This document shows, in pieces, positions 5,277-26,524 of a stretch of DNA of 64,000 nucleotides. This DNA is from Rubripirellula tenax. Its GTDB lineage: Bacteria > Planctomycetota > Planctomycetia > Pirellulales > Pirellulaceae. The stretch lies in the NCBI RefSeq assembly GCF_007860125.1, contig NZ_SJPW01000002.1:248001-312000 (forward strand), in the 5' to 3' direction. Position 1 is the stretch's first letter. Every line of letters begins with the position of its first letter. Made by a program: the position numbers and the translations under genes. A model generated the notes under the pieces. It was not told the DNA's origin, searched no databases, and was given only the letters and a program-made list of their open reading frames with translations.

Positions 5277-7712
5277 ATGCCCGCACCAAGCCCCGAAGTT
5301 TTCGAGAAGCTCGCTTCGTTCTACCTAGGCCGTCACTACGACTTGACCGGCGGCGTCTTGAAGGACGACCTGCTGATGTATGACGCAAAAGACCTTTGCA
5401 CGCACGCGATGTGTGTCGGAATGACGGGCAGCGGCAAGACGGGCTTGTGTCTATCGCTTCTTGAAGAAGCCGCCATCGACGGGATTCCGGCAATTTGCGT
5501 TGATCCCAAGGGCGACTTAGCGAACTTGCTATTGACGTTTCCCGATATGCGTCCCGAAGATTTCAAGCCGTGGTTGGAACAGGCCGATGCAGCTCGCAAG
5601 GGAAAAACGCTTGACGAGTTGGCGACCGACACTGCCGGAATGTGGAAAAAGGGACTCGCGTCGTGGGGCCAAACGCCGGAACGAGTTCGCAAGTTCAAGG
5701 ACGCTGTCGATATCGCCGTCTACACGCCGGGCAGCAACACGGGACTGCCATTAACGGTGCTCAAAAGCTTCGATGCGCCGCCGAAGGAAATGCTCGGCGA
5801 CAGCGACGCGATGCGCGAACGTGTCACCGGCGCAGCGTCGGGGCTTTTAACGCTACTGGGCATCGAAGCGGACCCGCTGCTTTCCCGCGAACACATTTTG
5901 ATCTCATCGATTTTCGACCACTGCTGGCGAGAGGGCCGCAATGTTTCGATTGGCGACTTGATCGGCTTGATCCAATCGCCGCCGCTGAAGCGAGTCGGCG
6001 TGTTGGATTTGGATTCGTTCATGTCGGCCGCGGATCGGTCGAAGTTGGCGATGACGCTGAACAACCTGCTGGCGTCACCGGCCTTTTCAACGTGGTTGGA
6101 CGGCGAGCCGCTGTCGATCAAAAATCTGCTGTATACGCCGGAGGGCAAGCCGCGGCTGACGATTCTGTCGATCGCCCACCTGAGCGACAGCGAGCGGATG
6201 TTTTTCGTCACGATCTTGTTGAATGAATTGCTCGCGTGGATGCGAACGCAGAGCGGCACCAGTTCGTTGCGTGCGATGTTCTATATGGACGAAGTCGCCG
6301 GGTATTTTCCGCCCGTTAAGAATCCGCCGACGAAGCCACCGATGTTGACGCTGCTCAAACAAGCCCGCGCATTCGGATTGGGCATCACGTTGGCGACCCA
6401 GAACCCCGTCGATTTGGATTACAAGGGTTTGTCCAACATCGGCACCTGGTTCTTGGGACGATTGCAAACCGAACGAGACAAGGCGCGCGTGCTGGAAGGA
6501 CTCGAAGGCGCGGCAGTCCAGTCGGGCAAGCCGTTCGACCGAAACCGAATGGAACAAATGCTGGCCTCGCTGGGCAATCGCGTCTTTCTAATGAACAACG
6601 TTCACGATGACGGCCCCAGTGTGTTTCAGACTCGTTGGGCGATGTCGTTCTTGGCGGGTCCCCTTGCGCGTGACCAGATCGTGCGGCTGATGGCGGATCG
6701 CAAATCCAAAATGGAGAAAGCGACGACTGACCAAGGCGAATCGGTCCAAGGACAATCGGCGACTCCGTCACGTCCGGTCGCTCCCCAAGGCGTCGAAGAA
6801 AAGTTCTTGGCACCGATGGTCGTTGCGGCGAGTGATTCACGCTTGGTGTATCGACCGTCCATTTATGCCGAAGGATCGCTGCACTATGTTCGCAGTAGCG
6901 CCGACGTGGATACCTGGATCGACGAAAAACGGATCATGTCCTGCGCTAACGGCGTGCCCGACGACTTGTGGGAAACCAGTAAGCCCATGCCGGTCGACGC
7001 GGACGTTTCCAGCGAACCCGACGCGGAATACCAGTTCGCCGATCTGCCTACCGAAATGCTAAGCAAGTCCAACTTCGGATCGTTCGAGAAAAAGTTCAAG
7101 GACTATCTGTACCGTCACCACACGATGACTTTGTACAAGGGTCCGCTGATCAAGGAATACGCGCCGGCCGGATCGACAGAAATAGAAGCTCGCAACCACT
7201 TCAAACAGTCGGCCCGGGAAGCGCTCGACATGGAAACCGAAAAATTGCGAGACAAATACGCGAGCAAGATGAAGGCCATCAACGACAAGATGCAAACTGC
7301 GCAAGATCGCGTGGACCGCGAAGCCGAGCAATACAATCAGGCGAAAATGTCATCGATCATTTCGGTCGGCGCGTCGATCTTGGGTGCGTTTTTGGGCAAC
7401 AAGGTCGCTAGCCGCACCAACGTGTCAAAAGTTTCGACGGCGGCGCGAGGCGCCAGCCGCGCCGCGCAACAACGAAGCGACGTTGTTCGCGCTGAAGAGA
7501 CTCTGAAGCAATTGGCGATGGACATGCAAGATCTTGACGCGGAACTGAACGAAGAACTGAAGGCGTTGGGCGACAAGTATCGAGTCGAGGATTGGGAGCT
7601 CGAATCGTTGACGATCCCTCCGCGAAAAAGCGATTTGAAGGTCACCGACCCGATCATCCTGTGGACCCCCTGGCAAGTCGATGGAAGCGGAATCGCTACG
7701 CCGATGTATTGA
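5277..7712 (+). CDS. HerA/DUF87-like P-loop ATPase with C-terminal coiled coil
   Basis: 811 aa, no signal peptide. Walker A GMTGSGKT is at residues 48-55, followed by DPKGDLANLL. Walker B is in AMFYMDE (Asp338-Glu339). The sensor-like ATQNPVDLDYKGLSN and the following arginine-rich stretch are typical of HerA/VirB4/FtsK-class ring ATPases. The C-terminal third carries a charged helical segment (~640-690), a small Gly/Ala helix (ISVGASILGAFLG, near 693-706) and another coiled coil (~720-780). It probably forms a hexameric ring moving a nucleic acid or protein substrate. No NurA nuclease or secretion partner is adjacent, so the role is open. The stop codon sits inside a 16-bp tandem duplication. 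Confidence 0.75.
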   Translation: MPAPSPEVFEKLASFYLGRHYDLTGGVLKDDLLMYDAKDLCTHAMCVGMTGSGKTGLCLSLLEEAAIDGIPAICVDPKGDLANLLLTFPDMRPEDFKPWLEQADAARKGKTLDELATDTAGMWKKGLASWGQTPERVRKFKDAVDIAVYTPGSNTGLPLTVLKSFDAPPKEMLGDSDAMRERVTGAASGLLTLLGIEADPLLSREHILISSIFDHCWREGRNVSIGDLIGLIQSPPLKRVGVLDLDSFMSAADRSKLAMTLNNLLASPAFSTWLDGEPLSIKNLLYTPEGKPRLTILSIAHLSDSERMFFVTILLNELLAWMRTQSGTSSLRAMFYMDEVAGYFPPVKNPPTKPPMLTLLKQARAFGLGITLATQNPVDLDYKGLSNIGTWFLGRLQTERDKARVLEGLEGAAVQSGKPFDRNRMEQMLASLGNRVFLMNNVHDDGPSVFQTRWAMSFLAGPLARDQIVRLMADRKSKMEKATTDQGESVQGQSATPSRPVAPQGVEEKFLAPMVVAASDSRLVYRPSIYAEGSLHYVRSSADVDTWIDEKRIMSCANGVPDDLWETSKPMPVDADVSSEPDAEYQFADLPTEMLSKSNFGSFEKKFKDYLYRHHTMTLYKGPLIKEYAPAGSTEIEARNHFKQSAREALDMETEKLRDKYASKMKAINDKMQTAQDRVDREAEQYNQAKMSSIISVGASILGAFLGNKVASRTNVSKVSTAARGASRAAQQRSDVVRAEETLKQLAMDMQDLDAELNEELKALGDKYRVEDWELESLTIPPRKSDLKVTDPIILWTPWQVDGSGIATPMY

Positions 7713-7732
7713 GGGTCCGATGTATTGAGGGG
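7701..7732. repeat. 16-bp tandem duplication across the ATPase stop codon
   Basis: Two adjacent copies, ccgatgtattgagggt and ccgatgtattgagggg (15 of 16 identical). The first contains the TGA stop of the ATPase gene (7710-7712) and the second repeats the same TGA out of frame. It lies between convergent genes, 17 bases before the trpD stop. Confidence 0.95.
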
Positions 7733-7748
7733 TCAGGCGGATTGGGCG

Positions 7749-8768
7749 TTAGCCTCGCAGTTGCTCTAACTTCGCGGTCGCCATACCGGCATCGATGCTG
7801 CGAGCCGCAAGCGTAACCCCTTCACCGACGTTGGCTACTTTGCCAACCAACAACAGCGCCGCCGCCGTCCCCGCCAGGACCGCGTCGCGCGTGGGTCCCG
7901 GTTCGCCCGCGAAGATCCGCGAGATGATTGATGCACTCTCGGCGGGGTCGATCGCTGCCAAAGCGTCGGCCGTGCAAGGCGAAAGCCCAAAGTCCTGCGG
8001 TGACCAAGTCAGCGTCTTCTTGCCTTCGGTTTGGACTTCGATGGCGGTCGTGACTCCATCGAGCGAGACTTCGTCTTGACCGTCCGACGCGTGGATCACG
8101 AATGATCGTGTGGTGCCAAGCTGGGCGATCGCCGCGGCGACCTTCGCTTGTGCATCGGGCGACGACGTGCCGAGCAATTGGTGGGTGGCGCCGGCCGGGT
8201 TGCAAAGCGGTCCCAACAAGTTGAACAGCGTCTTGACGCCCAACTTGCGACGTACTCCGACGACGTGCCGCATGGCTGGGTGCAACTTGGCGGCGAAACA
8301 GAAACAAATACCGATCGCATCCAATCGCTCGGCGACCGCGTCGGCATCCGATTCGATCCGTACGCCCAGTTCTTCCAAGACATCGGCCGATCCGGTACGG
8401 CTAGTCGCTTTTCGGTTGCCATGCTTGGCCACGGCGACACCGCTGGCGGCGGCCACGATCGCGACAGCGGTGCTGATATTGAACGTGCCGCTACCGCTGC
8501 CGCCGGTGCCACAGGTATCCAAAAGGACATCGTGTTTGTGAGGTATCCGCGTCATATGTCGCCGCATCGCGCGGGCCGCACCGACCAGCTCGGATACGGA
8601 TTCCCCCTTGGCCCGCAGTGCCAACAGCAATTCGGCGACGACATCATCGCCGGCTTCGCCCCTCAGCATTGCGTCGATCAGGTCGCTGGTCTGGTCGACC
8701 GAGAGATCTTCGCCTGCGACGGCCTGGCGGATGGCGGCTGGGAAAGCGGAATGAGCGTTTTCGGACAT
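7749..8768 (-). CDS. trpD: Anthranilate phosphoribosyltransferase
   Basis: 339 aa, the usual length for TrpD. Transfers the phosphoribosyl group of PRPP to anthranilate in tryptophan synthesis; cytosolic. The PRPP-binding loop GTGGSGSGTFNIST is at about 87-100. KHGNRKATSRTGSADVLEEL follows and holds the family's anthranilate- and PRPP-contacting residues, then the Mg-binding DGQDEVSLDG region. The N-terminal helical domain (DLSVDQTSDLIDAML) is complete. No other trp gene is adjacent. It is convergent with the ATPase gene and divergent from a nucleoside hydrolase. Start ATG at 8768. Confidence 0.96.
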   Translation of the reverse strand: MSENAHSAFPAAIRQAVAGEDLSVDQTSDLIDAMLRGEAGDDVVAELLLALRAKGESVSELVGAARAMRRHMTRIPHKHDVLLDTCGTGGSGSGTFNISTAVAIVAAASGVAVAKHGNRKATSRTGSADVLEELGVRIESDADAVAERLDAIGICFCFAAKLHPAMRHVVGVRRKLGVKTLFNLLGPLCNPAGATHQLLGTSSPDAQAKVAAAIAQLGTTRSFVIHASDGQDEVSLDGVTTAIEVQTEGKKTLTWSPQDFGLSPCTADALAAIDPAESASIISRIFAGEPGPTRDAVLAGTAAALLLVGKVANVGEGVTLAARSIDAGMATAKLEQLRG

Positions 8769-8874
8769 CGGCGGATGGTCGTCGTTGGTGGTGGCGGACG
8801 GCAGAGAAAGGAAAGCGTACGGACGCCCAAAATTCGGGGTCGCTGAAACAACGCGATAATTCTAGACTTTAGCG

Positions 8875-9816
8875 ATGAGCCGCAAGATTATCATCGACTG
8901 TGACCCGGGAATCGACGACGCCATTGCGATCGCGATCGCCCTATTTGACCCTCGTTTAGACGTTTTGGCGATCACATCGACTGCCGGAACGGTCGAGGCG
9001 GACCAAGCCACCCGAAACGTGACGGCGATCGTGCATCATCTCGATCCCGCCCGCTATCCGCGGATCGGGATGGCCACCGCGATTACAGGGGCTCCCGTGC
9101 TAGACGACAGCCATTTGAACGGCAGCAACGGGCTGGGCGATTTTCTTTTCGATTCCCCAGGACGCCAGAATCCGACGGCCAGCGAGAAAATCATCGGCGA
9201 TCTCGTCCACCAAAACCCCAACGAAATCACGCTGGTGTGTTTGGGACCGCTGACCAATTTGGCTCGGCTATGCCGTCGTGACCCGATGGCGATCCCGCTG
9301 ATCAACAACGTCGTGATCAGCGGCGGGTCGGTCGGGTATCCCGGAAACGCCACGCCAGTCGCCGAACGCAACATCTTCTTTGACCCGATCAGCGCGAGCG
9401 AGATTTTTTCATCCGCGACCACGAAAAGTCTGGTGCCGCTGGACGTGACCGAAGAGGTTCTGTTCGGCGTTGATTTGTTGGAAGACTTGCCGTCGAAGTT
9501 CACCCGAGCGGGGATGCTGTTGCACAAGTTGCTGCCGTTTGCGTTCCGCACCGCGCACCAGAAATTGGGTCGCGAACTGATCCCACTCTATGACGCGACA
9601 ACGTTGCTAAGCGTTGTTGAACCGGACCTGTTTCAATGGGAAGCGATGGCCGGCCGCGTGGAAACGCGAGGCGAATTGACTTGCGGTCAAACCGTATTCG
9701 ACCAACGACTGCGTCCAGAGTGGCCCATGAATATGGAAGTCGCAATCGAAGTCGACAGCGAAGAAGTGCAAGCAGCAATCAAGCGATTGATGCGGTACGC
9801 CGGACAACAAACGTGA
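8875..9816 (+). CDS. Inosine/uridine-preferring nucleoside hydrolase
   Basis: 313 aa, standard for the IUNH family. Hydrolyses the N-glycosidic bond of ribonucleosides to base plus ribose; cytosolic salvage. The N-terminal Ca-binding signature DCDPGIDDA (Asp8, Asp10, Asp14, Asp15) is intact, and GNATPVAERNIFFDPISA is the expected substrate-binding loop. The distal Asp near the C-terminus is in PLYDATT, where the family normally has a His (HD or PLHDP); this may shift specificity. With the PNP pair 4 kb away it makes purine/nucleoside salvage a local theme, though it is not in the same operon. Substrate cannot be fixed from sequence. Confidence 0.9.
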   Translation: MSRKIIIDCDPGIDDAIAIAIALFDPRLDVLAITSTAGTVEADQATRNVTAIVHHLDPARYPRIGMATAITGAPVLDDSHLNGSNGLGDFLFDSPGRQNPTASEKIIGDLVHQNPNEITLVCLGPLTNLARLCRRDPMAIPLINNVVISGGSVGYPGNATPVAERNIFFDPISASEIFSSATTKSLVPLDVTEEVLFGVDLLEDLPSKFTRAGMLLHKLLPFAFRTAHQKLGRELIPLYDATTLLSVVEPDLFQWEAMAGRVETRGELTCGQTVFDQRLRPEWPMNMEVAIEVDSEEVQAAIKRLMRYAGQQT

Positions 9817-9820
9817 TCAA

Positions 9821-9876
9821 CCGAGGTTACTGGGCCGAGGTTACTGGGCCGAGGTTACTGGGCCGAGGTTACTGAA
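9821..9876. repeat. Four-unit 14-bp tandem repeat containing the secretin stop codon
   Basis: Four adjacent copies of ccgaggttactggg (the last ends in gaa) fill the gap between the convergent nucleoside hydrolase and secretin genes. The final unit holds the TAA stop of the minus-strand secretin (9869-9871), and every other unit carries the same trinucleotide. Confidence 0.97.
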
Positions 9877-11428
9877 CCAAGCCGCTCGGGTAAGGAATCC
9901 GGGTCAGTTCGCGAGTGGCGAAGTCGGGAACCGCTTCCTCGAAACCGATGATCTCTTGTTGTCGCGGGCCGACGCAGTCGTGAATCACGTGCGTGACCAG
10001 CGCGACGACCAGTTCGTTGCGGCGAGACTCTTCGGCTTTACGTCGAAACAGGTGCCCCAGGATCGGGATTTTCCCCACCCACGGAATCATCGATTGGCTT
10101 TGTAGATTTTCTTCGCGAATCAGGCCACCGATCACAACGCCGCCACCGTCGGGAATCATGATCGTCGTCTGCACTTCGGTTGTTTCTTCTTCCGGAAAGC
10201 CGTTCTGCAGAATCTTGCCACCGGAAACTTTGGGCAGCACCGTCATCAGCACATTTCCGTCATCGGTGATCACCGGACGCACGGTCAAAACGATACCAAC
10301 CTCCAGAAACTCGACGGACTGGACCGTCGTCGTTTGCGTCGTCGTCGAAACAGAATAAGGCAATCGTTGGCCGATCTGGATCTTCGCTTCTTGATGATTG
10401 ATGACCGACAACTTTGGAGACGCGAGTGTCCGCGAATTGGTACATGACTCGATCATTTCCACCAATCCGGTCAAGTCGTTGCCCTTGATCCGCAGCGCAA
10501 CAGTTGGTTCGGTTGTCGATCCGTCGGTGAATCCCGTTCCTTGCAATTCAATGCCGCTGTTGTTGACTCGCGCCATAGCAAGCAGGTCGACGCCGTGCCT
10601 TTCTTCATTGGTCAAAGAGATTTGCAACACATGGGCTTCGATCAGAACTTGCTTCGGTGGCACATCGATCTGGGCAATGTATTGTGCGATTCGTTGGTGC
10701 GCCGCGGCGGTGTCTTCGACCACAAGCACTTCGCGAGTTCGCAATTGGTCCGCCGGCGCCGCTTCGCTGGCAAAGGCATTGCCGACTTGCGACAGCAAGC
10801 TTGTCGCCACCGGTTCGATATCTTTCGCGGCGACGTAATCCAGCGGATAGACTTGCAAGAATCGACCCTGCACACGCGGGTCCATGCCAGCCGACGAGGC
10901 GCCCGTCACGTACAACAAATTCCCAACACGGTGCCACGAAAACCCGGCGACACCCAAGATGGCATCCAGCACTTCGTCCAACCGCGCGCCACGAATGCTG
11001 ACGGTGACCGGGCCGGCGATGTCGGGCGCGACGACCAGATTCAATCCGTGGTGGTCGGCAATCATCCGCAGCACCGAAGTTAACTCTGCACCGGTTGCGA
11101 TCAACGTGACCAGATCATCGGCCGACGACAGATCCACACCCTCGACGGGCGCGGGTCGATTCACCCGAATCAGATCTGCCACCTGCAGCGTCGCCGACGC
11201 CGTGACTTCGGCAGCGTCGACCTGTGCGTCCACCTGCTCGATCGTTCCCAGCTTCAACCAATCGGGAATCTCCGAGGCTGAGACGACTTGGCTTTGAGGA
11301 TCCAAAACGAACGGCGCCGTCGCGGCTTCACCCGTATAGCCCGCCGGTGATTGGGCGTTGATCGACGCGCAGCAAGCAATCCAAAACAACGCGACTCTGC
11401 CCAACAAGGATGCTCGAATCAGGTGCAT
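9869..11428 (-). CDS. Secretin-family outer-membrane channel (GspD/PilQ-like)
   Basis: 519 aa. Signal peptide at ~1-25. An STN-like domain is at ~105-175 (ELTSVLRMIADHHGLNLVVAPDI, GARLDEVLDAIL), then a short N-domain (LQVYPLDYVAAKDIEPVATSLL), then the secretin core at ~265-490. Secretin landmarks: PPKQVLIEAHVLQI, SPKLSVINHQEAKI, LEVGIVLTVRPVI, GGVVIGGLIRE, VPWVGKIPILGHLFRR-like (here IPWVGKIPILGHLFRR) and NELVVALVTHVI. It should form a multimeric outer-membrane pore for a type II/IV-pilus-like or related system. No ATPase, pseudopilin or inner-membrane partner lies next to it. The stop codon lies in a tandem repeat. Confidence 0.9.
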   Translation of the reverse strand: MHLIRASLLGRVALFWIACCASINAQSPAGYTGEAATAPFVLDPQSQVVSASEIPDWLKLGTIEQVDAQVDAAEVTASATLQVADLIRVNRPAPVEGVDLSSADDLVTLIATGAELTSVLRMIADHHGLNLVVAPDIAGPVTVSIRGARLDEVLDAILGVAGFSWHRVGNLLYVTGASSAGMDPRVQGRFLQVYPLDYVAAKDIEPVATSLLSQVGNAFASEAAPADQLRTREVLVVEDTAAAHQRIAQYIAQIDVPPKQVLIEAHVLQISLTNEERHGVDLLAMARVNNSGIELQGTGFTDGSTTEPTVALRIKGNDLTGLVEMIESCTNSRTLASPKLSVINHQEAKIQIGQRLPYSVSTTTQTTTVQSVEFLEVGIVLTVRPVITDDGNVLMTVLPKVSGGKILQNGFPEEETTEVQTTIMIPDGGGVVIGGLIREENLQSQSMIPWVGKIPILGHLFRRKAEESRRNELVVALVTHVIHDCVGPRQQEIIGFEEAVPDFATRELTRIPYPSGLVQ

Positions 11429-11655
11429 GGATCACTAACGGGTAAAACCTCACAATTGGCTCGATCCGAATAATCGGACCAGTCCACCGCAAGAAGTATC
11501 GGCACCTGACCAAACGCGAATCGCGACAATTTCGTCAAAAGAAGCGAGCGCTCACGGTTTCGTTGATTCAGTTTCCCGCAAACCGTTCGCCCGCGTGTTA
11601 CGATAACCGCCGCTTTTACCAACCCAATGCCCCATTTCGCCCAGGTGGTCGCGTC

Positions 11656-13803
11656 GTGAAACACGTTCGCTCTTTGCTTTCACTGCACTCCGCTTTCGCG
11701 CTCAGTCGACTTTGCTTTCGGTCGCTGCTTTTCGGCATCGCCGTCACGACGATGCCGATCGCGACGTCGTCGCTGTTTGCTGATACGCCCGATGCCGTTG
11801 CCTACGACGTCGTCATCTATGGTGGCACCAGCGCAGCGATCACGACGGCGGTTCAAACGAAACGGATGGGCAAGTCGGTCATCGTGGTCTGCCCCGACAA
11901 GCACCTCGGCGGTTTGACATCCGGCGGTTTGGGATGGACCGACTCGGGTAACAAGAATGCCGTTGGCGGACTCAGTCGCGATTTTTATCATCGCGTTTGG
12001 AAACACTACCAAAACCCCGATGCGTGGAATTGGCAACCGCAATCGGAGTTCGGCACGCGCAATCAAAGTCCACCGGGCCCTGACGGCGATGGCGGGACAA
12101 TGTGGGTCTTCGAGCCTCATGTTGCCGAGCAAATTTTTGACGACTGGATGGCCGAGTATCAAATCCCCGTCTTTCGCGATCAATGGATCGATCGATCGCC
12201 CGGCGGTGTGGTGATGCGAAACGGGCGGATCGAATCTTTTCGTACCCAAAGCGGTCAAACGTACCGTGGCAAGATGTTCGTCGACGTGACGTACGAAGGC
12301 GATCTGATGGCCGCTGCCGGCATCGATTACCACGTCGGACGAGAGGCGGCCAAGAAATACGATGAATCGTTTGGCGGTGTCCAAACCGGCGTGTTCCACC
12401 ATGCTCACTTCTTTGCGAAGCCGATTTCACCCTACGTTGTGCCCAATGATCCGGCCAGCGGACTGTTGCCGCGAATCAGCGCCGATCCACCCGGCAATTT
12501 CGCCGACGGCGATAATCGGGTCCAAGCGTATTGTTTCCGGATGTGCTTGACCAACGTCGAAGCGAACCGTCGACCGTTCCCGCGCCCCGCCGGCTATGAC
12601 GCATCCCAGTACGAATTATTGTTGCGAGTTTTTGAATCGGGATGGCGCGATCAGTTCAAAAAATTCGATCGGATGCCCAATCATAAAACCGACACGAACA
12701 ACCATGGTCCCTTCAGTACTGACAACATCGGCATGAACTTCGATTATCCCGATGCAGACTATGATCGACGTCGCGAGATCATTGCCGAACACGAAACGTA
12801 CCAGAAGGGCTTGATGTACTTCATGGCGAACGATCCCAGAGTGCCCGCCGAGGTTCGCAACGCGATGTCAAAGTGGGGACTCCCCAAAGACGAGTTCCCC
12901 GACACCGACGGATGGCCACATCAACTGTATGTTCGCGAAGCACGTCGCATGATTGGTGAATACATCATGACCGAGCATGACTGCTTGGACAAAAAGCCAA
13001 CGCCCGATTCGATCGGCATGGGATCTTACACGCTCGATTCTCACAACGTCCAACGTTACGTCACTCCGGACGGATGGGTCCAAAACGAAGGCGACGTCGG
13101 TGTACACACGCCGCGTGCGTACGAGATCGCGTTTGGGTCCATCGTTCCTAAGAAATCTCAGTGCCAAAACCTGCTCGTTCCCGTTTGTGTGTCCTCAAGT
13201 CACATGGCGTTCGGGTCGATTCGCATGGAGCCCGTTTTCATGGTTCTGGGCCAATCGGCGGCGACTGCGGCTTGTTTGTCCATCGACCAAGATCAGCCAG
13301 TCCAAGACTTACCCTACGAGACGCTCAAGAAGCGGTTGGTCGATGACGGCCAGGTGCTGGAACTAGAATCAACCGATGAACATCCTTCCAATAAAATGGA
13401 AGGCGTTGTCATCGATGACTCGCGGGCGATTCTGAAGGGCGCCTGGACACCGTCGCATACCAACAAACCCTTTGTGGACTCGGGGTATCGTCACAACCGA
13501 AACATGGCCGACGGAGGAATTTCGGCTACGTTTCAGACTCCTTTGGATACCGGACGCTACCGAGTCCGGATGTCTTATCCGCCCAACTCGAATCGCGCCA
13601 CCCAGGTTCCCGTAACCGTCGTCCACGATGGTGGTGAAACGACGATTCGGATCAACCAACGTCAACGGCCATCGGTCGATGGGCTCTTCGTCGACTTGGG
13701 AATTTTTTCGTTTACGGATTCCGGCGTGGTTCGTGTCGACACCCAGGACACCGATGGCTTCGTTGTGATTGATGCTGTCCAGTTTCGGAAATTGGACGAA
13801 TAG
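11656..13803 (+). CDS. Secreted FAD-dependent oxidoreductase with golvesin-like C-terminal domain
   Basis: The GTG at 11656 is chosen because it places a signal peptide (VKHVRSLLSLH to SSLFADT) at the N-terminus; an in-frame TTG at 11563 would give a long, less likely leader. About 715 aa. The dinucleotide-binding start YDVVIYGGTSAAI, then LGGLTSGGLGWTDSGN, GGLSRDFYHR and FVDVTYEGDLMAAAG are features of the FAD_oxidored family common in planctomycetes. The last ~110 residues (ISATFQTPLDTGRYRVRMSYPP to VVIDAVQF) look like the golvesin/xylan-lyase CBD-like domain. Probable periplasmic oxidation of a sugar-derived compound; substrate unknown. Divergent from the secretin gene and followed at 124 bp by an exported Gfo/Idh/MocA protein. 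Confidence 0.85.
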   Translation: MKHVRSLLSLHSAFALSRLCFRSLLFGIAVTTMPIATSSLFADTPDAVAYDVVIYGGTSAAITTAVQTKRMGKSVIVVCPDKHLGGLTSGGLGWTDSGNKNAVGGLSRDFYHRVWKHYQNPDAWNWQPQSEFGTRNQSPPGPDGDGGTMWVFEPHVAEQIFDDWMAEYQIPVFRDQWIDRSPGGVVMRNGRIESFRTQSGQTYRGKMFVDVTYEGDLMAAAGIDYHVGREAAKKYDESFGGVQTGVFHHAHFFAKPISPYVVPNDPASGLLPRISADPPGNFADGDNRVQAYCFRMCLTNVEANRRPFPRPAGYDASQYELLLRVFESGWRDQFKKFDRMPNHKTDTNNHGPFSTDNIGMNFDYPDADYDRRREIIAEHETYQKGLMYFMANDPRVPAEVRNAMSKWGLPKDEFPDTDGWPHQLYVREARRMIGEYIMTEHDCLDKKPTPDSIGMGSYTLDSHNVQRYVTPDGWVQNEGDVGVHTPRAYEIAFGSIVPKKSQCQNLLVPVCVSSSHMAFGSIRMEPVFMVLGQSAATAACLSIDQDQPVQDLPYETLKKRLVDDGQVLELESTDEHPSNKMEGVVIDDSRAILKGAWTPSHTNKPFVDSGYRHNRNMADGGISATFQTPLDTGRYRVRMSYPPNSNRATQVPVTVVHDGGETTIRINQRQRPSVDGLFVDLGIFSFTDSGVVRVDTQDTDGFVVIDAVQFRKLDE

Positions 13804-13926
13804 CGGTGCGGCGAAAATCGGGTTTTCCCCGCTGCAACGCGAACTTGATTCGGCCACGATGTAGAATGAGTGTCCTTCGCAAGAAGATCCAACATCCCGC
13901 CCAGTCCCATTCACGGAATTTTTAAG

Positions 13927-15366
13927 ATGAACCGTTTGAACCGCCGTCATTTCCTCGTCACCGCGGTGGCCGCCGGAGCAGCGACGGCGTCGTCGCCAAG
14001 CGTGTTGCGAGCAGCTAACGCGAACGGCGAAATCAATCTGGGTTTCATCAGTTGCGGTGGTCGCGCCGGACAGTTGATGGATCAATTCAGCAAGGTCGAC
14101 GGCGTCAACATCGCCGGACTGTGTGACGTCGACGAAGGCCGGTTAGCGGCGGCGAAAAAGAAGTACTCGAAAGCCGAAACGTTCCAAGACATGCGCGACC
14201 TGATCGCCGTCGACAGCATCGATGCGATCGTCGTAGCGACGTGCAACCACTGGCACTGTCTGGCCGCGATTTGGGCGATGGAAGCGGGCAAAGACGTGTA
14301 CGTTGAAAAACCACTTTCGCATTCACAATGGGAAGGTCGGCAAACCGTCGCAGCGGCGCGCAAGTACAACAAAATTTGTCAAATCGGAACTCAACAACGT
14401 TCGGACCCGATGCAGGCCGAGATCAAAAAGTTTCTACATGAAGAAAAAGGACTCGGCGAAATCCAATCGGCGCGAGTCAATCGATACGGCATCCGTGGAC
14501 CGATCGGCAAACGAGACACGCCGCTGGAAATTGACAAGAATGTCGCCTACGACATGTGGCTCGGCCCGGCCCAAGACCAACCGATCTTTCGCAACAACTT
14601 GCACTACGATTGGCACTGGGATTGGAATACCGGCAGCGGCGAGATGGGCAACTGGGGCGTTCACGTTTTGGACGATGTCCGTAACACCGTTTTCCAAGAT
14701 TCCGTTTCGCTTCCGAAACAGATCCTCGGTGGTGGCGGCCGAATTGCTTACAACGATGCGGGCCAGTCGCCCAACGTTCACTTTGCGTACTTCGACACCG
14801 GGAACATTCCGGTTGTGATCGGGCTATCCAATTTGCCAGCCGCACCGGGCGGTAAAAAGTCGCCCTCGAAACCAGGCCCCGACAGCGGCTACGTCGCCTA
14901 TTGCGAAGGCGGTCGGTACGAAGGTCAACGCGGGCGCGGCACGGCGTTTGACAACGACGGAAAGAAAATTCGCACGTTCAAAGGCAGCGGCGATGTGAAA
15001 CATCAAGCCAACTTCATCGAGGCGGTGCGTGCGCAAGATCGTTCGCTATTGAATGCAGACATTTCAATCGGCAACGACAGTACCGGATGGTGCAACTTAG
15101 CGAACATCGCGTTTCGCGCCGGTCAATCGGCAAGTCCCGATCGCGTTAGTGCAGTCGATAACCCTCAGTGGGAATCGCTGTTGGGCGAAATGACCGATCA
15201 CTTGAAGGCATACGATATGTCGCTGGCCAGCGATGAAATTCATGTCAGTCCGTTGCTGTCGCTGGACACCAAGACGGAACAGTTCACCGGTGAAGGTAGC
15301 GAGACGGCCAACGCGATGTTGCGTCGCCAATACCGAAAGGGCTACGAAGTCCCCGAGATCGTTTGA
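13927..15366 (+). CDS. Tat-exported Gfo/Idh/MocA-family oxidoreductase
   Basis: 479 aa from the ATG at 13927. The N-terminus has a twin-arginine signal (NRRHFLVTAVAAGAA). The NAD(P)-binding Rossmann region reads LGFISCGGRAGQLM, followed by NHWHCLAAIWAMEAGKDVYVEKP with the family EKP motif, and IGTQQRS. The second half is the usual alpha/beta substrate domain (WHWDWNTGSGEMGNWGVH). This subfamily is expanded in planctomycetes and is thought to act on sugars or glycosides in the periplasm. The preceding FAD oxidoreductase and following glycosidase-like gene fit a carbohydrate context. The stop codon begins a 16-bp tandem repeat. Confidence 0.9.
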   Translation: MNRLNRRHFLVTAVAAGAATASSPSVLRAANANGEINLGFISCGGRAGQLMDQFSKVDGVNIAGLCDVDEGRLAAAKKKYSKAETFQDMRDLIAVDSIDAIVVATCNHWHCLAAIWAMEAGKDVYVEKPLSHSQWEGRQTVAAARKYNKICQIGTQQRSDPMQAEIKKFLHEEKGLGEIQSARVNRYGIRGPIGKRDTPLEIDKNVAYDMWLGPAQDQPIFRNNLHYDWHWDWNTGSGEMGNWGVHVLDDVRNTVFQDSVSLPKQILGGGGRIAYNDAGQSPNVHFAYFDTGNIPVVIGLSNLPAAPGGKKSPSKPGPDSGYVAYCEGGRYEGQRGRGTAFDNDGKKIRTFKGSGDVKHQANFIEAVRAQDRSLLNADISIGNDSTGWCNLANIAFRAGQSASPDRVSAVDNPQWESLLGEMTDHLKAYDMSLASDEIHVSPLLSLDTKTEQFTGEGSETANAMLRRQYRKGYEVPEIV

Positions 15367-15411
15367 TCTACTGGTTTGCTGATCCACTGGTTTACTGATC
15401 CATTGGCCTGG
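15364..15411. repeat. Three-unit degenerate 16-bp repeat starting at the stop codon
   Basis: Three consecutive 16-base units beginning tgatctactggtttgc, tgatccactggtttac and tgatccattggcctgg. The first TGA is the stop of the Gfo/Idh/MocA gene and each later unit begins with TGA again. It occupies almost all the space before the convergent gene ending at 15418. Confidence 0.9.
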
Positions 15412-15417
15412 TGCGGG

Positions 15418-16959: not shown

Positions 16960-17060
16960 ACCACTTCACGAAACGGGGAAACAAGCCGACAGCGTGAAAG
17001 AACTATAGTCGGGACACCCAGGTGTGTGCCCCGCTTGGTCGCAGGCCGAATCAACGATAC

Positions 17061-18107: not shown

Positions 18108-18196
18108 ATCGATCCGGTGCACATCAAATAAAGCGAGCAGTCCCGTCGAATGCGAGCAGGTCCCATCCGGCGAATCTTCGAGCTTGGATGGCCAGA

Positions 18197-19205: not shown

Positions 19206-19337
19206 CATTTACCGCACGCTCTCTTAGTCCCAGCCCGATCGGGAACACAATCGGCCGTGTCTTGCCTTCGGATTCAATCCTTGGCAATACAGATTCGATG
19301 GGACGCCGGAGAGTCACAGACGAGGAATCGCCCCCCC

Positions 19338-19817: not shown

Positions 19818-20122
19818 TGAGTAACGACGCCTCACTCACCCGAATCGTGGTTGTCCGAAATGCCGAAGGGCTGCACGCCCGGCCGGCAGATTTGTTGGTC
19901 CGTTTGGCCAGCAAATATCAGGCGACCATCATGATTGGCAAAAACAGTGAATGGGTCGATTGTAAAAGCATCTTGTCGCTTTTGACGCTGGGTGCTTCGC
20001 AGGGGACGGAGCTTTCCGTCTCGGCTTCCGGTGATGACGCCGCGGATGCCATCGATTCAATCGCAGCACTGTTCGAGGCGGGATTCGACGACAATAACGG
20101 GACCAAAGGAGTTGATTCGTGA
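19817..20122 (+). CDS. ptsH: Phosphocarrier protein HPr
   Basis: 101 aa. The active-site His20 lies in AEGLHARPADLLV and the regulatory Ser51 in CKSILSLLTLG. Both sit five residues later than the classical His15 and Ser46, because of a short N-terminal extension. It relays phosphate from enzyme I to EIIA. Keeping the Ser suggests regulation by an HPr kinase/phosphorylase, which I do not see in this window. Its ATG overlaps the EIIA stop. A 236-bp gap follows before enzyme I. Confidence 0.95.
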   Translation: MSNDASLTRIVVVRNAEGLHARPADLLVRLASKYQATIMIGKNSEWVDCKSILSLLTLGASQGTELSVSASGDDAADAIDSIAALFEAGFDDNNGTKGVDS

Positions 20123-20358
20123 TCTCGAATCAGGAATTCGACATCGCGGGTCGTTGACGCATCGGCGCAGCTCATTGCTGGGCCTTGGTCTCTTCTAACC
20201 CTTACAACTTATCAAACGAAATACTTGATGGATTGCGTCACGAAAGCAGTGCTGCCTAGGCAGTTCCGCTCGCATGCAGATGCCGGGTTCGTTGCGGCTT
20301 GCCCGCGATGGAACAACGGTGTCGCCGATGCGCGTGCGTCTCGGTCTGTCCCACGACG

Positions 20359-22104
20359 ATGGTCGAACTGCAAGGTATCCCTGTCTCGCCAGGAGTCGCT
20401 ATCGGTCCGGCACTAGTGTTGGATGCGGATGGTTACCAAATTCCTCGCTCTATGCTGCCCGCCGAAGAGGCGGACCAGGAGTACGCGCGCCTGCAGACCG
20501 CCGTCGACGCCGTGTCGGCGCGATTGGAAAACAGCCGCTTAGAAACTTCCGCCGTGGCCGGCGAACACACCGGCGACATCTTCGCGGCCCAGTTGCAAAT
20601 GCTGCATGATCCGCGTTTGCATGCGGAACTGCGGCGTCGAATTTGCAACGAAAACCTAACGGCGGCGTATTCGGTCAATCGCGTCCTCCACAACTATGCC
20701 GCCGCGCTGCGTCGACTCTCCAACCCGATGTTGGCCGACCGCGCCGAAGACGTGCTGGATATCGAAAAGCAGCTGCTGCTAGAACTTGGCGCCGTCACTC
20801 GCGGGCCGATGTCGGAATTGACCGAGCCCGTGATCGTGCTCTCCCATGTTCTGACGCCCAGCGAAACAGCGAACTTGGATCGGCGCTACGTTCGCGGTTT
20901 CGCGACCGAAACCGGTGGCCCGGGCGGGCATACCGCCATCGTCGCCAAGGGTTTGGAATTGCCAGCCGTCGTCGGAATTGGCGCATTCATGGACCAAGTC
21001 GGCGCCGGCGACCGAGTCATCGTCGACGGGGATCGCGGCCGCGTCATCATCAATCCCGATGAAGAAACGCTCAAGAATTATCGCCAACGGCTCAAGCAAC
21101 GCAATTCTTTAAGCGAGCGATTGGCCGAACTTCGCGACCTGCCAGCCGAAACGGCCGATGGCGTTCGCATTCGACTGAGTGCCAATATCGAGTTCCCCTA
21201 CGAGACGGCCGCGGCACTCGAGCGTGGCGCCGATGGCATCGGACTGTATCGGACCGAGTTCCTTTACCTGTCCAGCGACGAAGAGCCCAGTGAAGAAGAT
21301 CACTACCGCGCCTACAGCGAAGTCGTTCGCGATATGGGCGGTCGACCCGTCGTGATTCGGACGCTGGATTTGGGCGCGGACAAGATGGGGCACCGACCGC
21401 TGACCGAACAAGAACACAATCCGTTCTTGGGTTTGCGAAGTATCCGATTGTCGCTGCGAAACCTAGATCTGTTCCGACCCCAACTGCGTGCGATCTTGCG
21501 AGCCGCGGTATACGGTGACGTTCGCGTGATGTTCCCGCTGATCACAACGATCGCCGAACTACGCCAAGCGCGCATGTTGCTGAACTTGGTCGCCGAAGAT
21601 TTGAATGACGCGGGCATTCCGTACCGCGGTGATATCCCGGTCGGCATGATGGTGGAAGTCCCCGCCGCCGTGATGATGCTCGACCATTTTGTTCGCGAAG
21701 TCGACTTCATTTCGATCGGGACCAACGACCTCGCCCAGTACACGTTGGCCGTCGACCGAAGCAACGAATCCGTAGCCGACCTTTACCAGTCAAGCGACCC
21801 GGCAGTGCTACGGCTGATCCGCCACTGTGTCCAGGTCGCGGATGAATCGAAAACGCCGCTGGCCGTATGTGGTGAAATGAGCAGCATGCCGGCGCGGGCA
21901 CTGTTGCTGTTGGGCATGGGTGTTCGCAACTTGAGTGTGCCGCCGTCGAGTTTGCCACGTGTCAAGAAAGCGATTCGCAGCGTCACGGTCCAACAGTGTT
22001 GTGAGATCGCCGAGCGCGTCATGAAGCTCGAAGCCGCCCGCGACGTGGATATGTATTTGCTCGACCGACTCGGCAGTTTGGTGCCCGAATTGGTTGTTAC
22101 TTAA
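20359..22104 (+). CDS. ptsI: PTS enzyme I (phosphoenolpyruvate-protein phosphotransferase)
   Basis: The start at 20359 (MVELQGIPVSPG) matches the family N-terminus; 581 aa. Phosphorylates HPr using PEP. Order: N-terminal HPr-binding helical domain with phosphohistidine His191 in TGGPGGHTAIVAKGLELPAVVG-type context, then the PEP-binding barrel with GIGLYRTEFLY, RTLDLGADKM, NPFLGLRSIR, MFPLITTIAELRQA, GMMVEVPAA, DFISIGTNDLAQY and the Cys of AVCGEMSS. There is no GAF domain, so it is EI-type rather than EI-Ntr. The residues before the active His (GGPGG) differ from the more common GGRTS. Confidence 0.95.
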   Translation: MVELQGIPVSPGVAIGPALVLDADGYQIPRSMLPAEEADQEYARLQTAVDAVSARLENSRLETSAVAGEHTGDIFAAQLQMLHDPRLHAELRRRICNENLTAAYSVNRVLHNYAAALRRLSNPMLADRAEDVLDIEKQLLLELGAVTRGPMSELTEPVIVLSHVLTPSETANLDRRYVRGFATETGGPGGHTAIVAKGLELPAVVGIGAFMDQVGAGDRVIVDGDRGRVIINPDEETLKNYRQRLKQRNSLSERLAELRDLPAETADGVRIRLSANIEFPYETAAALERGADGIGLYRTEFLYLSSDEEPSEEDHYRAYSEVVRDMGGRPVVIRTLDLGADKMGHRPLTEQEHNPFLGLRSIRLSLRNLDLFRPQLRAILRAAVYGDVRVMFPLITTIAELRQARMLLNLVAEDLNDAGIPYRGDIPVGMMVEVPAAVMMLDHFVREVDFISIGTNDLAQYTLAVDRSNESVADLYQSSDPAVLRLIRHCVQVADESKTPLAVCGEMSSMPARALLLLGMGVRNLSVPPSSLPRVKKAIRSVTVQQCCEIAERVMKLEAARDVDMYLLDRLGSLVPELVVT

Positions 22105-22130
22105 AACCCTAGCCTTTGAATCTTTGATTC

Positions 22131-22976
22131 GTGACCGAAACTTCCACCACCACCGATGAACTGACCAACGCAGGCGATGACTCGTCCGCGGCGATGTGCG
22201 CTCAGCAGCGCATTCGGTACCGGGTGCGGTTCGCAAAGACGGGATTGCTGCGTTGGATCGGTCATCAAGACATGATCCGATTGTGGGAACGGATCGCCCG
22301 TCGCGCCGACTTGAAACTGTCGATGACCGAAGGCTTCACACCCAAGCCGCGGTTCGTATTTCCGTCGGCGTTGGCGCTGGGCGCCGAGGGCGTCAACGAA
22401 GTCGTTGAGATCGAGTTGGCGGAATCGATCGCGCCCACCGAGATGCTCAATCGCTTGGTCCGCGACAACCAACCGGGGCTGTCGATCAACCGCGTTTCCC
22501 GATTGCCCGACGGTTTTGGCAAGGCCCAACTGATACGAACCGATTATCGCGTGTCTGCGCCGACCGGCGTGGATGGCCACGACGTGGTCATCAATTGGAA
22601 CCGGATCGGCGAATCGATCGACGCCCTGTTGTCAAAAGAATCGATCACGATCGAGCGAAAAAAGAAGGCCGTCACGCTGGTGGTCCAACAACAGATTCAC
22701 GAACTTCGCGTCGACGACGAATCGATCGTGTTGTCGTTGATCGCAACCAACTCTGCATCGCTGCGCCCCAACGATGTGTTAACGCTGCTTAGCCTTGACA
22801 ATTGGATCGACGGCGGAGCCACGATCACACGAACCAACGTCCACTTGGACAACGAATTTGAAACCAGCGATCTCGACGAGATCGCTACCCGTAAACAATC
22901 ACCGCCAGCGTCCATGCGATTGACGCAAACTTTGCAATCGCATCAAGCCGGCCCAACACCCGTAAGAGGTGCTTAA
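22131..22976 (+). CDS. DUF2344 / TIGR03936-type radical-SAM-linked protein
   Basis: GTG start at 22131; 281 aa. Conserved segments of the family are YRVRFAKTGLLRWIGHQDMIRLWERIARRA-like and MTEGFTPKPRFVFPSALALGAEG. In many bacteria this domain is fused or adjacent to a TIGR03960 radical SAM protein and next to RNase G/E. Here it stands alone and ends two bases before the RNase G/E start (TAA, cg, ATG), so the two are almost certainly co-translated. Its function is unknown; the recurrent link to RNase G points to RNA or ribosome metabolism (inference). About 60 C-terminal residues look unstructured. Confidence 0.85.
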   Translation: MTETSTTTDELTNAGDDSSAAMCAQQRIRYRVRFAKTGLLRWIGHQDMIRLWERIARRADLKLSMTEGFTPKPRFVFPSALALGAEGVNEVVEIELAESIAPTEMLNRLVRDNQPGLSINRVSRLPDGFGKAQLIRTDYRVSAPTGVDGHDVVINWNRIGESIDALLSKESITIERKKKAVTLVVQQQIHELRVDDESIVLSLIATNSASLRPNDVLTLLSLDNWIDGGATITRTNVHLDNEFETSDLDEIATRKQSPPASMRLTQTLQSHQAGPTPVRGA

Positions 22977-22978
22977 CG

Positions 22979-24583
22979 ATGAAAAAAGAAATGCTGATCA
23001 ATGTGCTGCAACCCGAAGAGTGCCGCATAGCCGTGTTGGAAAACAACCGGCTGGAAGAACTGTACATGGAACGCAAAAGCGTCGAAGCGTTTGCGGGCAA
23101 CATTTACCGCGGCAAAATCGTCAATCTTGAACCCAGTATCCAAGCGGCATTCGTCGACTTTGGCGTTGGTCGAAATGGATTCCTGCACATCAGCGATGTC
23201 GAACCCCAATACTTTCGCCAAGGCGGTTACGACCCTGCCGAAGTGATGCGTGAATCGGACGAGATGGCCGAAGTGGCCGCCAAGCGAGCTCGCGAATCTG
23301 GCCGTGGATCCAAGCACGCATTCAAGGGCGGTCGCCCTCGTGTCAAACCTCCGATTCAAGAAATTTTTCGACGCGGCGACGAAGTCTTGGTGCAAGTCAT
23401 CAAAGAAGGCATTGGTACCAAGGGGCCGACGCTTAGCACCTACATTTCGATCCCCGGTCGTTACTTGGTGTTGATGCCGTCGCTGCTTCGCGTCGGTGTC
23501 AGCCGCAAGATCGAAGACGAAGATGATCGCAAGCGATTGAAGCGATGCCTGTTGGCGCTCAACCCGCCCAAGGGACTCGGCTTCATCGTTCGTACCGCCG
23601 GAGCGGGTCGCAAAGAGAACGAACTCGAAAATGACCTCGAGTACTTGCTGCGACTTTGGAAAGCGATCGTCAAACGGATCAAGTCAACGACCGAACCGGG
23701 CGTGATCTACGAAGAAAGCGATCTGATCATCCGAACCATCCGGGACATCTACAGCGATGACATCGATCAAATTTTGGTCGACGAAAAAGAGTCGTACGAG
23801 AAGGCCCGTGACTTCTTGAAGATGTGCATGCCGCGAGTCGTCGAACGGCTGAAATTCTATGACAGCGACGTGCCACTGTTCCACAAGTACAAGTTGGAAC
23901 AAGAGATCGTGAAGATCAACACTCGCCAAGTTCAGTTGCGTGACGGCGGCTCGATCGTGATCGATCCCACCGAAGCGTTGGTTGCGATCGACGTCAACAG
24001 CGGCAATTTCCGCGGCAACGATTCGGCGGAAGAAAACGCTTTCCGACTGAATATGGCGGCGGCGAAAGAAATCGCGCGTCAATTACGACTGCGTGACCTT
24101 GGCGGCGTGATCGTCAATGACTTCATCGACATGCGCAAAGAAAGCCACCGCCGCAAAGTCGAACGCACTCTGCGGGATGCGATGGCGACGGACCGCGCGC
24201 GAACCAAAATCTTGCGGACGAGTCCGTTCGGTTTGATCGAGATGACCCGTCAACGGATTCGTCCGAGTCTGAAACGGAGCATTTACAACGATTGCCCTTG
24301 CTGCGAAGGACGCGGGTTGGTCAAGACGGCCGAGAGCATGTCGATCGAGGTGATCCGGACTTTGGCGCTTGCGTCGAAGAACACGCACATCGAACGGGTC
24401 ACGATCCGAGTCAACGATCAAGTCGCCGCGCACCTGAACAACCGCAAGCGTCGGGACGTCATGCTATTGGAAGACACCGGAAAGATGTCCGTACAGATTC
24501 TGGGCAGCGAAGCGCTCTACCCCGAACACCTCGAACTCGATTGCCGCGACAAAAACGGCGAACGCGTCGAGATCGATAGCTGA
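22979..24583 (+). CDS. rng: Ribonuclease G/E
   Basis: 534 aa, RNase G-sized, without the long C-terminal scaffold of E. coli RNase E. Endoribonuclease for rRNA 5' maturation and mRNA decay. An S1 domain ([22 protein letters not shown]) carries an extra ~50-residue basic insertion ([15 protein letters not shown] to [17 protein letters not shown]). RNase-H-like and catalytic motifs follow: [13 protein letters not shown] and [11 protein letters not shown], which contain the two Mg-binding Asp. The Zn-link is CPCCEGRG. Starts two bases after the DUF2344 gene. Confidence 0.95.
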
Positions 24584-24603
24584 GGGAGGAGTTTACAGGC
24601 GTC

Positions 24604-24697
24604 AGGTTTCAGGCAACAGGATTTGCTTGGAACCGACGCTGCACCACCTCTACCTATTTGCTGTTTCCTAAAACCTGTCACCTGAAACCTGTTGCCT
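24604..24697. repeat. Imperfect inverted repeat between rng and pdxJ
   Basis: The left arm aggtttcaggcaacagg (24604-24620) is complementary to cctgtcacctgaaacct (24674-24690) at 15 of 17 positions. The same left region (24611-24623) also pairs with 24685-24697 at 12 of 13. The right arm ends nine bases before the pdxJ ATG, so folding could affect pdxJ initiation or end rng transcription. Confidence 0.7.
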
Positions 24698-24705
24698 ACT
24701 CCGCC

Positions 24706-25428
24706 ATGATCGAACTCGGCGTCAACATTGATCACGTCGCGACCGTGCGTCAGGCTCGGCGGACGTATGAACCCGATCCGGTCGTTGCCGCGGCGCTGGC
24801 CGAACAGGGTGGCGCCGACGGGATCACGTTTCACCTGCGCGAAGATCGACGTCACATTCAAGATCGCGACGTCGAGATCCTGAAAGCGACGGTGACAGTG
24901 AAGACGAATTTCGAGTTGGCGTGCGCCGACGAAGTCGTCGCGATCTGTTGTCGCACGCAACCGAATTGGGGATTGTTGGTACCCGAGAGTCGCGAAGAAG
25001 TGACGACCGAGGGTGGATTGAATGTGACCGGAGATGCGGGTCGCGTCAAAGCCGCCGTCGCACGATTGAAAGAAGCCGGTATTTTGGTGAGCCTATTCAT
25101 CGACCCGGATCTGGATCAGGTCCGCGCGTCTGCCGAATTGGGCGTCGACGCAGTCGAACTGCACACCGGGCCGTACGCGATCGCAGGTCGAGAAGATCAA
25201 AAACGAGAACTCGACCGTTTGGCCGCCGCTGGACGCGAGGTCACCGCCGCGGGCATGCGACTGCACGCCGGGCACGGGCTGAACTACATCAATGTTCGCG
25301 ACGTTGCGAAGCTGCCCGATATGATCGAGCTGAATATCGGCCACTCGATCGTCAGCCGGGCGGTCATGGTCGGCATGAAAGAGGCTGTTTCGGAGATGCG
25401 GCGAATTTTGGATCTTTGCGCGCCGTAG
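24706..25428 (+). CDS. pdxJ: Pyridoxine 5'-phosphate synthase
   Basis: The start at 24706 ([18 protein letters not shown]) matches the family; 240 aa. Condenses 1-deoxyxylulose 5-phosphate with 3-amino-2-oxopropyl phosphate, the last ring-forming step of DXP-dependent vitamin B6 synthesis. Signature segments are all present: [36 protein letters not shown]-like [49 protein letters not shown], and [12 protein letters not shown]. The upstream region contains inverted repeats close to the start codon. Confidence 0.96.
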
Positions 25429-25460
25429 GTTAGACCAGTCCTTTAACCAAGAAACGTTTG

Positions 25461-26411
25461 ATGATGACACGACTTTCGATTCCATTGGGACTGTTGATTG
25501 CTTTCGGTTCGTCCGCGATCGCGGAAGAGAAGCGTGTTGGCGAACGTCGAGCACCGGCGCCGACAGTTTCAAGTGATCAGCTGCGGGGGATTTTCTTTGA
25601 CGACCTGAGCGAGGCAATACGAGGCGAGCGACCATTGCTGTCGACGCTTCGCAAGTCAGCCGAAGCGATGCAATCGAAGGCCGCATCGAAAGTCGCCAGC
25701 AGCGATGGCGAGCCGACCAACGATACGTGGTCGCGATTGATTTCACCGGTATCGTTGGAGGACGAGGTGAAACGAGTCCGTCTGCATTTCGATTCGATCG
25801 TCACAACGCCCGGCGCGTTCAACAGCGGTGGATATCAAGATGCTCGTTTGGATCTGACCGTTTTGGCGACACTGTTTGCCATCATCCACGAACACTCCGC
25901 GGACGTTCGGTGGAAGAGCGACGCACCCGCCGCCCGTGACCTGTTGGCCAGAACAGCATTCAACTGCAAAGCCGGTTCGACGCAAGTGTTCAACGAGGCA
26001 AAATTACGCAAGGCCGACTTGCAGGACTTGGTGTCGGGCACGGGGCTGAACTCTCGCGATGCCGAACCCGAAAACGTATGGACTGAAATCGCGGACCGTT
26101 CGCCGTTGATGGAATACGCCGAGCGGTTGATCGGATCTCTGGAAGGGAACAGTCGCGACGCGGCGGCGATCGCCGAGAATGTTGACGCCGTTCGTCGAGA
26201 CGCAGAACTGATTTCGGCGCTGGGCGAAGTGTTGACCAAAGAAGGAATGGACGAAGCCGACGACGATGACTACGCCAACCTGAGCCGGGCGATGATCAGC
26301 GAGTCCAAGCAAGTCGTCGCGGCGATCGAACGAGCGGATTTCGACGGAGCCCGTTCGGGCGTTAGTCTGATCCGCGGGCGCTGCGATGCTTGCCACGAGC
26401 AATACAGGTAA
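25461..26411 (+). CDS. Exported protein with C-terminal CXXCH haem site (cytochrome c'-like)
   Basis: The ATG at 25461 gives 316 aa with a signal peptide (MMTRLSIPLGLLIAFGSSAIA). The protein is mostly helical, with several amphipathic helices. The only haem-binding motif is Cys308-Asp-Ala-Cys311-His312, five residues from the C-terminus, in a final helix. A C-terminal CXXCH on the last helix is the hallmark of four-helix-bundle cytochromes c' and c556. The protein is about twice the family length, and a related four-helix unit may precede the haem domain. Probable periplasmic electron carrier or gas sensor (inference). Its stop lies in a 16-bp duplication. Confidence 0.65.
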   Translation: MMTRLSIPLGLLIAFGSSAIAEEKRVGERRAPAPTVSSDQLRGIFFDDLSEAIRGERPLLSTLRKSAEAMQSKAASKVASSDGEPTNDTWSRLISPVSLEDEVKRVRLHFDSIVTTPGAFNSGGYQDARLDLTVLATLFAIIHEHSADVRWKSDAPAARDLLARTAFNCKAGSTQVFNEAKLRKADLQDLVSGTGLNSRDAEPENVWTEIADRSPLMEYAERLIGSLEGNSRDAAAIAENVDAVRRDAELISALGEVLTKEGMDEADDDDYANLSRAMISESKQVVAAIERADFDGARSGVSLIRGRCDACHEQYR

Positions 26412-26431
26412 CCCGCAATACAGGTAACCCG
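26400..26431. repeat. Perfect 16-bp tandem duplication across the stop codon
   Basis: Two identical copies of caatacaggtaacccg. The first contains the TAA stop (26409-26411) of the cytochrome c'-like gene and the second repeats it out of frame. Confidence 0.97.
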
Positions 26432-26524
26432 ACGCGAATCGCAGACAGTATCGATCAGGGGCCGTTTACGAAGTAGAATACGGATCGATCCCGCGAACCC
26501 GATTCTCTTCCCTCGTCGTCCAAA

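Follow-up and report, generated by a model that had tools for sequence, protein, structure and literature searches.

Introduction

In archaeal Borgs, the units of tandem repeats are reported to be divisible by three within ORFs but only in 14-38% of cases in intergenic DNA, and the repeats have independent origins (PMC9879509). Head-to-tail units in spacers as well as genes are common to these repeats and to the arrays described here; however, the Borg repeats are reported there as perfect, A-enriched and flanked by partial repeats, whereas one of our arrays (array 3) is imperfect. The heptamers GGGAATC and GGGGA(C/T)T of Xanthomonas and Nostoc are a further case, since some of them overlap stop codons, and polymerase slippage is discussed as a source (PMC4692102). 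Like our arrays, they are short tandem repeats near or over stops, but they are described as one G-rich 7-nt unit that recurs genome-wide, in contrast to the four units of 14-16 bp found here, which are not shared (PMC4692102). A survey of bacterial satellites, in which Rhodopirellula baltica is tabulated, reports that lengths divisible by three predominate and that others are common (PMC6749651). As in the present case, it covers tandem repeats in bacterial spacers and genes, but a large share of the surveyed satellites (42.6%) have units over 30 nt, in contrast to the shorter arrays of the window. The survey does not take up stop codons, a term with 0 occurrences in it.

The arrays lie in a window of 64 kb, by which we mean the whole stretch of DNA at issue (G000:C2:248001-312000), in a genome of 7.99 Mb assembled in 42 contigs. 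We read 2.05 Mb of this genome in all (C1:1-800000 and C2:1-1252000) and 400 kb each of the congeners G011 and G002, the latter a one-contig assembly, for a total of 2.85 Mb. Genes were called with a purpose-written script, which gave coding fractions of 0.82 and 0.77 on the two contigs of this genome, 0.79 in G011 and 0.66 in G002. Among the named relatives retrieved with the nucleoside hydrolase gene are Rubripirellula, Rhodopirellula and Neorhodopirellula (Planctomycetes).

Results

That four gene ends of the window lie inside short tandem repeats, as the sequence-only reading had proposed, is borne out by the sequence, by TRF and by the ORF ends. Array 1 (7701-7731, + strand) consists of 1.9 copies of a 16-bp unit with 100% matches and covers the stop codon of a HerA-like ATPase gene (7710-7712, +) in a convergent spacer of 36 bp. 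Array 2 (9821-9874, - strand), with 3.9 copies of a 14-bp unit and 100% matches, covers the stop of the secretin gene (9869-9871, - strand); it fills the 52-bp convergent spacer between this gene and the nucleoside hydrolase gene, starting 5 bp past the stop of the latter (gene end 9816). Array 3 (15364-15406, + strand) has 2.7 copies of a 16-bp unit and starts at the stop of the GFO_IDH_MocA gene (15364-15366, +), in a convergent spacer of 51 bp. Array 4 (26399-26431, + strand), with 2.1 copies of a 16-bp unit and 100% matches, covers the stop of the cytochrome c'-like gene (26409-26411, +) in a codirectional spacer of 113 bp. The genes of arrays 1 to 3 have Pfam matches to HerA-like, secretin and GFO_IDH_MocA, respectively, and the cytochrome c' match of the array 4 gene is slightly under the cut-off.

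All four repeats were thus present as described, with the exception that array 3, at 88% matches in TRF the only one of the four below 100%, is imperfect and slightly shorter than the 3 x 16 bp claimed for it. Each array is less than 60 bp long, and in every one the extra copies are located past the stop. Two further statements of the earlier reading held in all four cases: the stop trinucleotide occurs once per copy, and no period is divisible by three, although four such periods out of four have a chance of about 0.2. The remnant of a third copy measures 0 bp in array 1 and 1 bp in array 4. Three of the arrays occupy convergent spacers that measure 36-52 bp, and there overlap with a stop is almost unavoidable for a unit of 14-16 bp.

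The units had been called unrelated, which is correct for five of the six pairs; units 1 and 4, however, have TGTATTGMGGGT in common, on opposite strands. Their likeness is the best among the six pairs (shuffle P = 0.001). A hidden common motif (TTACTG, TACAGGTAA), suggested by likeness to the eye, was rejected, as the pair 1-4 alone beats shuffles. When the 126 non-coding units were compared with each other, 21 pairs scored at least 12, versus 1-3 in controls. Twelve of these belong to a heptamer family, five fall within G002, three join a G002 unit to a unit of this genome and one is of another kind; the four array units are absent from all 21. The unit pair of array 2 has no second site in the whole genome with up to 2 mismatches allowed. 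A dispersed family built on one shared unit, of the heptamer or REP kind, was also considered and set aside, as the many genomic sites that define such a family were found neither for array 2 genome-wide nor among the top unit pairs.

The heptamer family is an observation in its own right. Arrays of the heptamer YAGGNNN number 38 in the 2.05 Mb read (37 non-coding), versus 2 in shuffles, and the four-unit pattern gives 74 + 66 matches genome-wide, overlaps counted, versus 0 + 1 for the reversed control. Facing pairs not more than 200 bp apart occur 12 times, and the opposite order 0 times. Both neighbouring genes lie within 30 bp in nine of the 12 pairs; one pair has its right gene 109 bp off, and two are far from called genes. 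The copy in the window (24596-24698) occupies the spacer between the RNase E/G gene and pdxJ and has a fold z of -5.24. The pattern is dense in G011 (72, control 0) and G021 (111, control 12), as well as in other families of the order (74 in G041, control 0; 529 in G040, control 195), and has no match in 12 of the 21 other genus members searched. The YAGGNNN heptamers are a dispersed hairpin element distinct from the four arrays, and no paper on this element turned up in the literature searched.

With the window included, the 649 kb of non-coding sequence hold 64 exact arrays with a period of 11-40, and the 2203 kb of coding sequence hold 32. After Markov shuffling, the non-coding part yields 0 such arrays versus the 64 real ones, and therefore arrays this long are not chance matches. 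The period is divisible by three in 31 of the 32 coding arrays and in 35 of the 64 non-coding ones; for TRF arrays the corresponding numbers are 116 of 134 and 60 of 126. The coding figure implies that frame-shifting duplications are purged from genes, while the non-coding figure of 35/64 exceeds one third and suggests that some of the “non-coding” arrays may lie in genes missed by the caller. Two features of minisatellites are present: head-to-tail units of about 10-60 bp beyond chance, by TRF and by the shuffle, which are either non-coding (here with the extra copies past the stop) or, if coding, in frame in 31 of 32 instances. In 52 of the exact non-coding arrays a third copy is either absent or shorter than 9 bp; it measures at least 3 bp in 20 of these and is absent from 23. 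By our own rough estimate, partial copies exceed what blunt joining would give by chance, and some of the arrays are probably due to slippage between short repeats.

Outside the window, we compared array starts with the stop-codon end of 842 genes with a downstream stretch of 80 bp or more. At a TRF score of at least 44, 10 arrays start in the 20-bp bin that contains the stop, [-20,0), and the four bins after it, each of 20 bp, have 5, 14, 3 and 5 starts; further inside the genes there are 3 in [-40,-20) and 1 in [-60,-40). The stop bin and the four that follow hold 8, 4, 10, 2 and 5 starts at a score of 50, and 4, 3, 7, 1 and 4 at a score of 60. In this respect the bin with the stop resembles the DNA immediately downstream, and the starts become fewer only at roughly one unit length within the gene.

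A placement test, in which the unit of each array is put uniformly over the protein-neutral positions of its own spacer (those that leave both neighbours intact), gave a similar picture. Outside the window, in spacers of up to 300 bp, stop overlaps are 11/46 versus 8.6 expected at score 44, 8/34 versus 6.7 at score 50 and 4/22 versus 4.1 at score 60. With spacers of up to 1000 bp, the numbers are 15/89 versus 10.4 (P = 0.06), 12/65 versus 8.1 (P = 0.07) and 6/42 versus 5.2, respectively. In the window, all four arrays with a score of at least 50 cover stops, versus 2.85 expected (P = 0.11). Start codons, on the other hand, are covered less than expected (2 versus 5.5 and 5 versus 7.5 at score 44), as constraint on start sites would give. 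A genome-wide enrichment at stop codons, the test set in advance for the earlier reading, was therefore not found: in 2.05 of the 7.99 Mb and 0.8 Mb of two congeners there is no significant stop-specific excess over the allowed positions (lowest P = 0.06 in the placement test), and a small excess at stops is possible. A first null, with uniform placement over all uncalled DNA, had given 7/52 stop overlaps versus 1.94 (P = 0.005), 9/79 versus 2.86 at score 44 and 4/37 versus 1.53 at score 60 (P = 0.08). It was dropped because long uncalled stretches inflate the available space and because arrays extend beyond one unit. As a local cluster the four arrays of the window are mildly unusual: 4 non-coding arrays with a TRF score of at least 60 lie in 64 kb, versus 1.2 predicted from the 37 arrays in the other 1.99 Mb, a Poisson P of about 0.03 that was computed by hand and post hoc and concerns the number of arrays alone.

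Are the same gene ends occupied in other species? Arrays with different units were found at 13 of 72 congener loci, namely 3/18 for nucleoside hydrolase, 5/16 for trpD, 2/20 for Gfo and 3/18 for the cytochrome; ten congeners bear other units at these four gene ends and the units differ between species at the same place. Three of the 13 cover a stop, two of them at trpD (G004 and G019) and one at the cytochrome (G020). The 72 leave out nucleoside hydrolase matches that end short of the C terminus or have less than 60 bp past the stop, a second Gfo copy of G004 and arrays with a period below 9 (an 8-bp array at the Gfo gene of G011); they retain the cytochrome pieces of G020 and G003, which have only 39 and 14 bp past the stop. 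A hot spot at these four gene ends was a candidate, as 13/72 looked high next to the pooled figure for this genome, G011 and G002, where 72 of 1590 gene ends bear an array, but it was rejected, since the relatives' own DNA gives 5/40. The latter figure comes from 20 pieces of 3 kb from 19 congeners, placed arbitrarily and not by random draw, in which two of the arrays cover a stop. Without G002 and G011 the comparison is 11/64 versus 5/40 (Fisher P = 0.59), and for these two alone it is 2/8 versus 29/422 (P = 0.11).

With one simple ORF caller, the density of non-coding arrays per kb is 0.30 and 0.23 on the contigs of this genome (window included), 0.27 in G011 and 0.40 in G002. It is 0.91 in the other congeners (7 arrays, 7.7 kb), 0.17 at 5 near loci (2 arrays), 0.34 at 60 other Planctomycetes loci (29 arrays), 0.38 at 8 loci of other phyla (5 arrays) and 0.05 in E. 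coli K-12 (1 array, 150 kb); this caller takes the longest ORFs as genes, as was also done for the 3-kb congener pieces, so some spacer DNA is counted as coding. The array density of this genome is unexceptional within its phylum.

The C-terminal ends of three of the four proteins (ATPase, Gfo and cytochrome-like) coincide with those of the congeners. All 811 residues of the ATPase align in both G011 and G002. In peptides read by eye from the DNA, the Gfo protein ends in P-E-(I/L)-V-stop and the cytochrome-like protein in E-Q-Y-R-stop in this genome, G011 and G002 alike. For the secretin, the G002 match ends at residue 508 of 519, short of the C terminus.

Discussion

We consider it very probable that the four arrays are ordinary short tandem duplications, or intergenic minisatellites, which have been filtered by selection on the reading frame. 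An occasional copying or repair error would duplicate 10-20 bp head to tail, and later rounds would add copies. Selection would purge nearly all duplications that shift a frame within genes. A duplication that covers a stop would be harmless, because the upstream copy would retain the original 3' end and its stop, with the extra copies behind, and the allowed zone would thus extend into every gene by the length of one unit. Where convergent spacers are short, a unit of 14-16 bp could hardly avoid a stop, so that arrays would seem stop-linked. The data show where the arrays lie, the frame rule, the lack of a significant excess specific to stops and the different units that congeners bear at these places; how the duplications arise (by slippage or end joining), and how often, is our inference. 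Among the options raised by the sequence-only reading, duplication tolerated only past the stop is the one that gains support, from the coding arrays that are in frame in all but one case and from a stop bin no richer than the bins that follow it.

Could the arrays instead reflect a duplication process tied to gene 3' ends, in which stop regions or convergent spacers would spawn arrays repeatedly through termination or through colliding convergent transcription? The 13/72 congener loci set against 72/1590 gene ends point in this direction, as do the 15 stop overlaps versus 10.4 at the loosest setting (P = 0.06) and, in spacers of 30-120 bp outside the window, 5 arrays in 89 convergent spacers and 9 in 275 codirectional ones (score 44). 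However, the contrast with arbitrary gene ends of the congeners fades to P = 0.59, in a comparison small enough for a two-fold effect to escape, the stop bin does not stand out from those past it, and in spacers of 120-300 bp convergent arrangements are no denser than codirectional ones (0.44 and 0.43 arrays per kb). Together with the lack of a significant stop excess (lowest P = 0.06), of an unusual fold and of any terminator-like site on the arrays, this makes a 3'-end process, the second option of the earlier reading, unlikely.

A function of the arrays in transcription termination, in mRNA 3' structure or as out-of-frame stops that catch shifted ribosomes is, in our judgement, very unlikely. 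In each of the four arrays, a period not divisible by three does add stops in other frames. Yet outside the window the period is a multiple of three in three of the ten stop-bin arrays, as by chance, and G011 and G002 are without an array at six of the eight loci examined in them. Five folds of the array regions do not surpass shuffles (z from -0.60 to 0.68) and 0 of 33 terminator-like sites lies on an array, so an intrinsic terminator, with its stable hairpin and T tract, was rejected for these places; Rfam has no family at threshold in 7000-27500. Copies created by the assembler, the remaining option, seem extremely improbable. In favour of this option, the genome is in 42 contigs, but the arrays are shorter than 60 bp, the same kind of array is seen in the one-contig assembly of G002, other units occur at the same gene ends in ten congeners, and three of the four genes end at the congeners' end positions.

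We also gauged the bolder idea that convergent-gene 3' ends in the genus are hot spots, at which one species after another gains fresh, unrelated arrays and duplicated copies rebuild the gene ends. If true, this hot-spot reading would point to a coupling of duplication with the ends of transcription; it finds no support in the present data, and we hold it to be improbable. In the literature searched, by title or start of the abstract and with most subscription journals outside its scope, no paper dealt with a unit-length overhang at stops. Filtering of ordinary duplications by the reading frame, our preferred explanation, supplies a simple null for repeats that pile up at gene ends: an overhang of one unit length past the stop. 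Selection alone can make random mutation appear targeted, and the repeats found at stop codons trace the boundary of the region where a frame-shifting duplication does no harm.

A stretch of DNA behind the 16-bp array that spans the stop codon of the cytochrome c'-like gene (window 26399-26431) looks similar to the end of the corresponding gene in related species. At 26446-26477 it reads CAGTATCGATCAGG ... GAAGTAGAAT, and in two congeners (G011 and G002) the end of the cytochrome c'-like gene plus spacer reads CAGTATCGATAAGG ... GAAGTAGAAT; the similarity was judged by eye. These sequences give the impression that a former gene end persists as a leftover copy, with the present end encoding the same last residues in other codons. 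In a third congener (G020, locus L284), a 21-bp array covers the stop codon of the same gene, and a contig terminates within it (102 of 401 bases obtained). Therefore, arrays of this kind may break assemblies.

A separate, dispersed element of 60-147 bp consists of YAGGNNN heptamers in two arrays facing each other, which form a strong hairpin. Copies lie at window 24596-24698, between an RNase E/G gene and pdxJ, and elsewhere in the R. tenax genome at C1:394734-394845, C1:687813-687959 and C2:525105-525243. In 2.05 Mb of this genome there are 12 pairs of arrays in the facing orientation and none in the opposite order, and the element fills the spacer between two genes in 9 of the 12 cases. Its density is high in some members of the genus; 12 of the 21 other members searched gave no match.

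Near the window start, at 1182-1253, a 15-bp unit (GGGATCCTGAGCGCT) is repeated in tandem 4.8 times; this array is intragenic according to the gene caller, and its period keeps the reading frame. Among 20 arbitrarily placed 3-kb pieces from congeners, 15 lack any tandem array with a score of at least 44, and pieces from G016 (L303) and G013 (L300) hold four and three such arrays, respectively. How many tandem arrays are present varies strongly with the location or the species.
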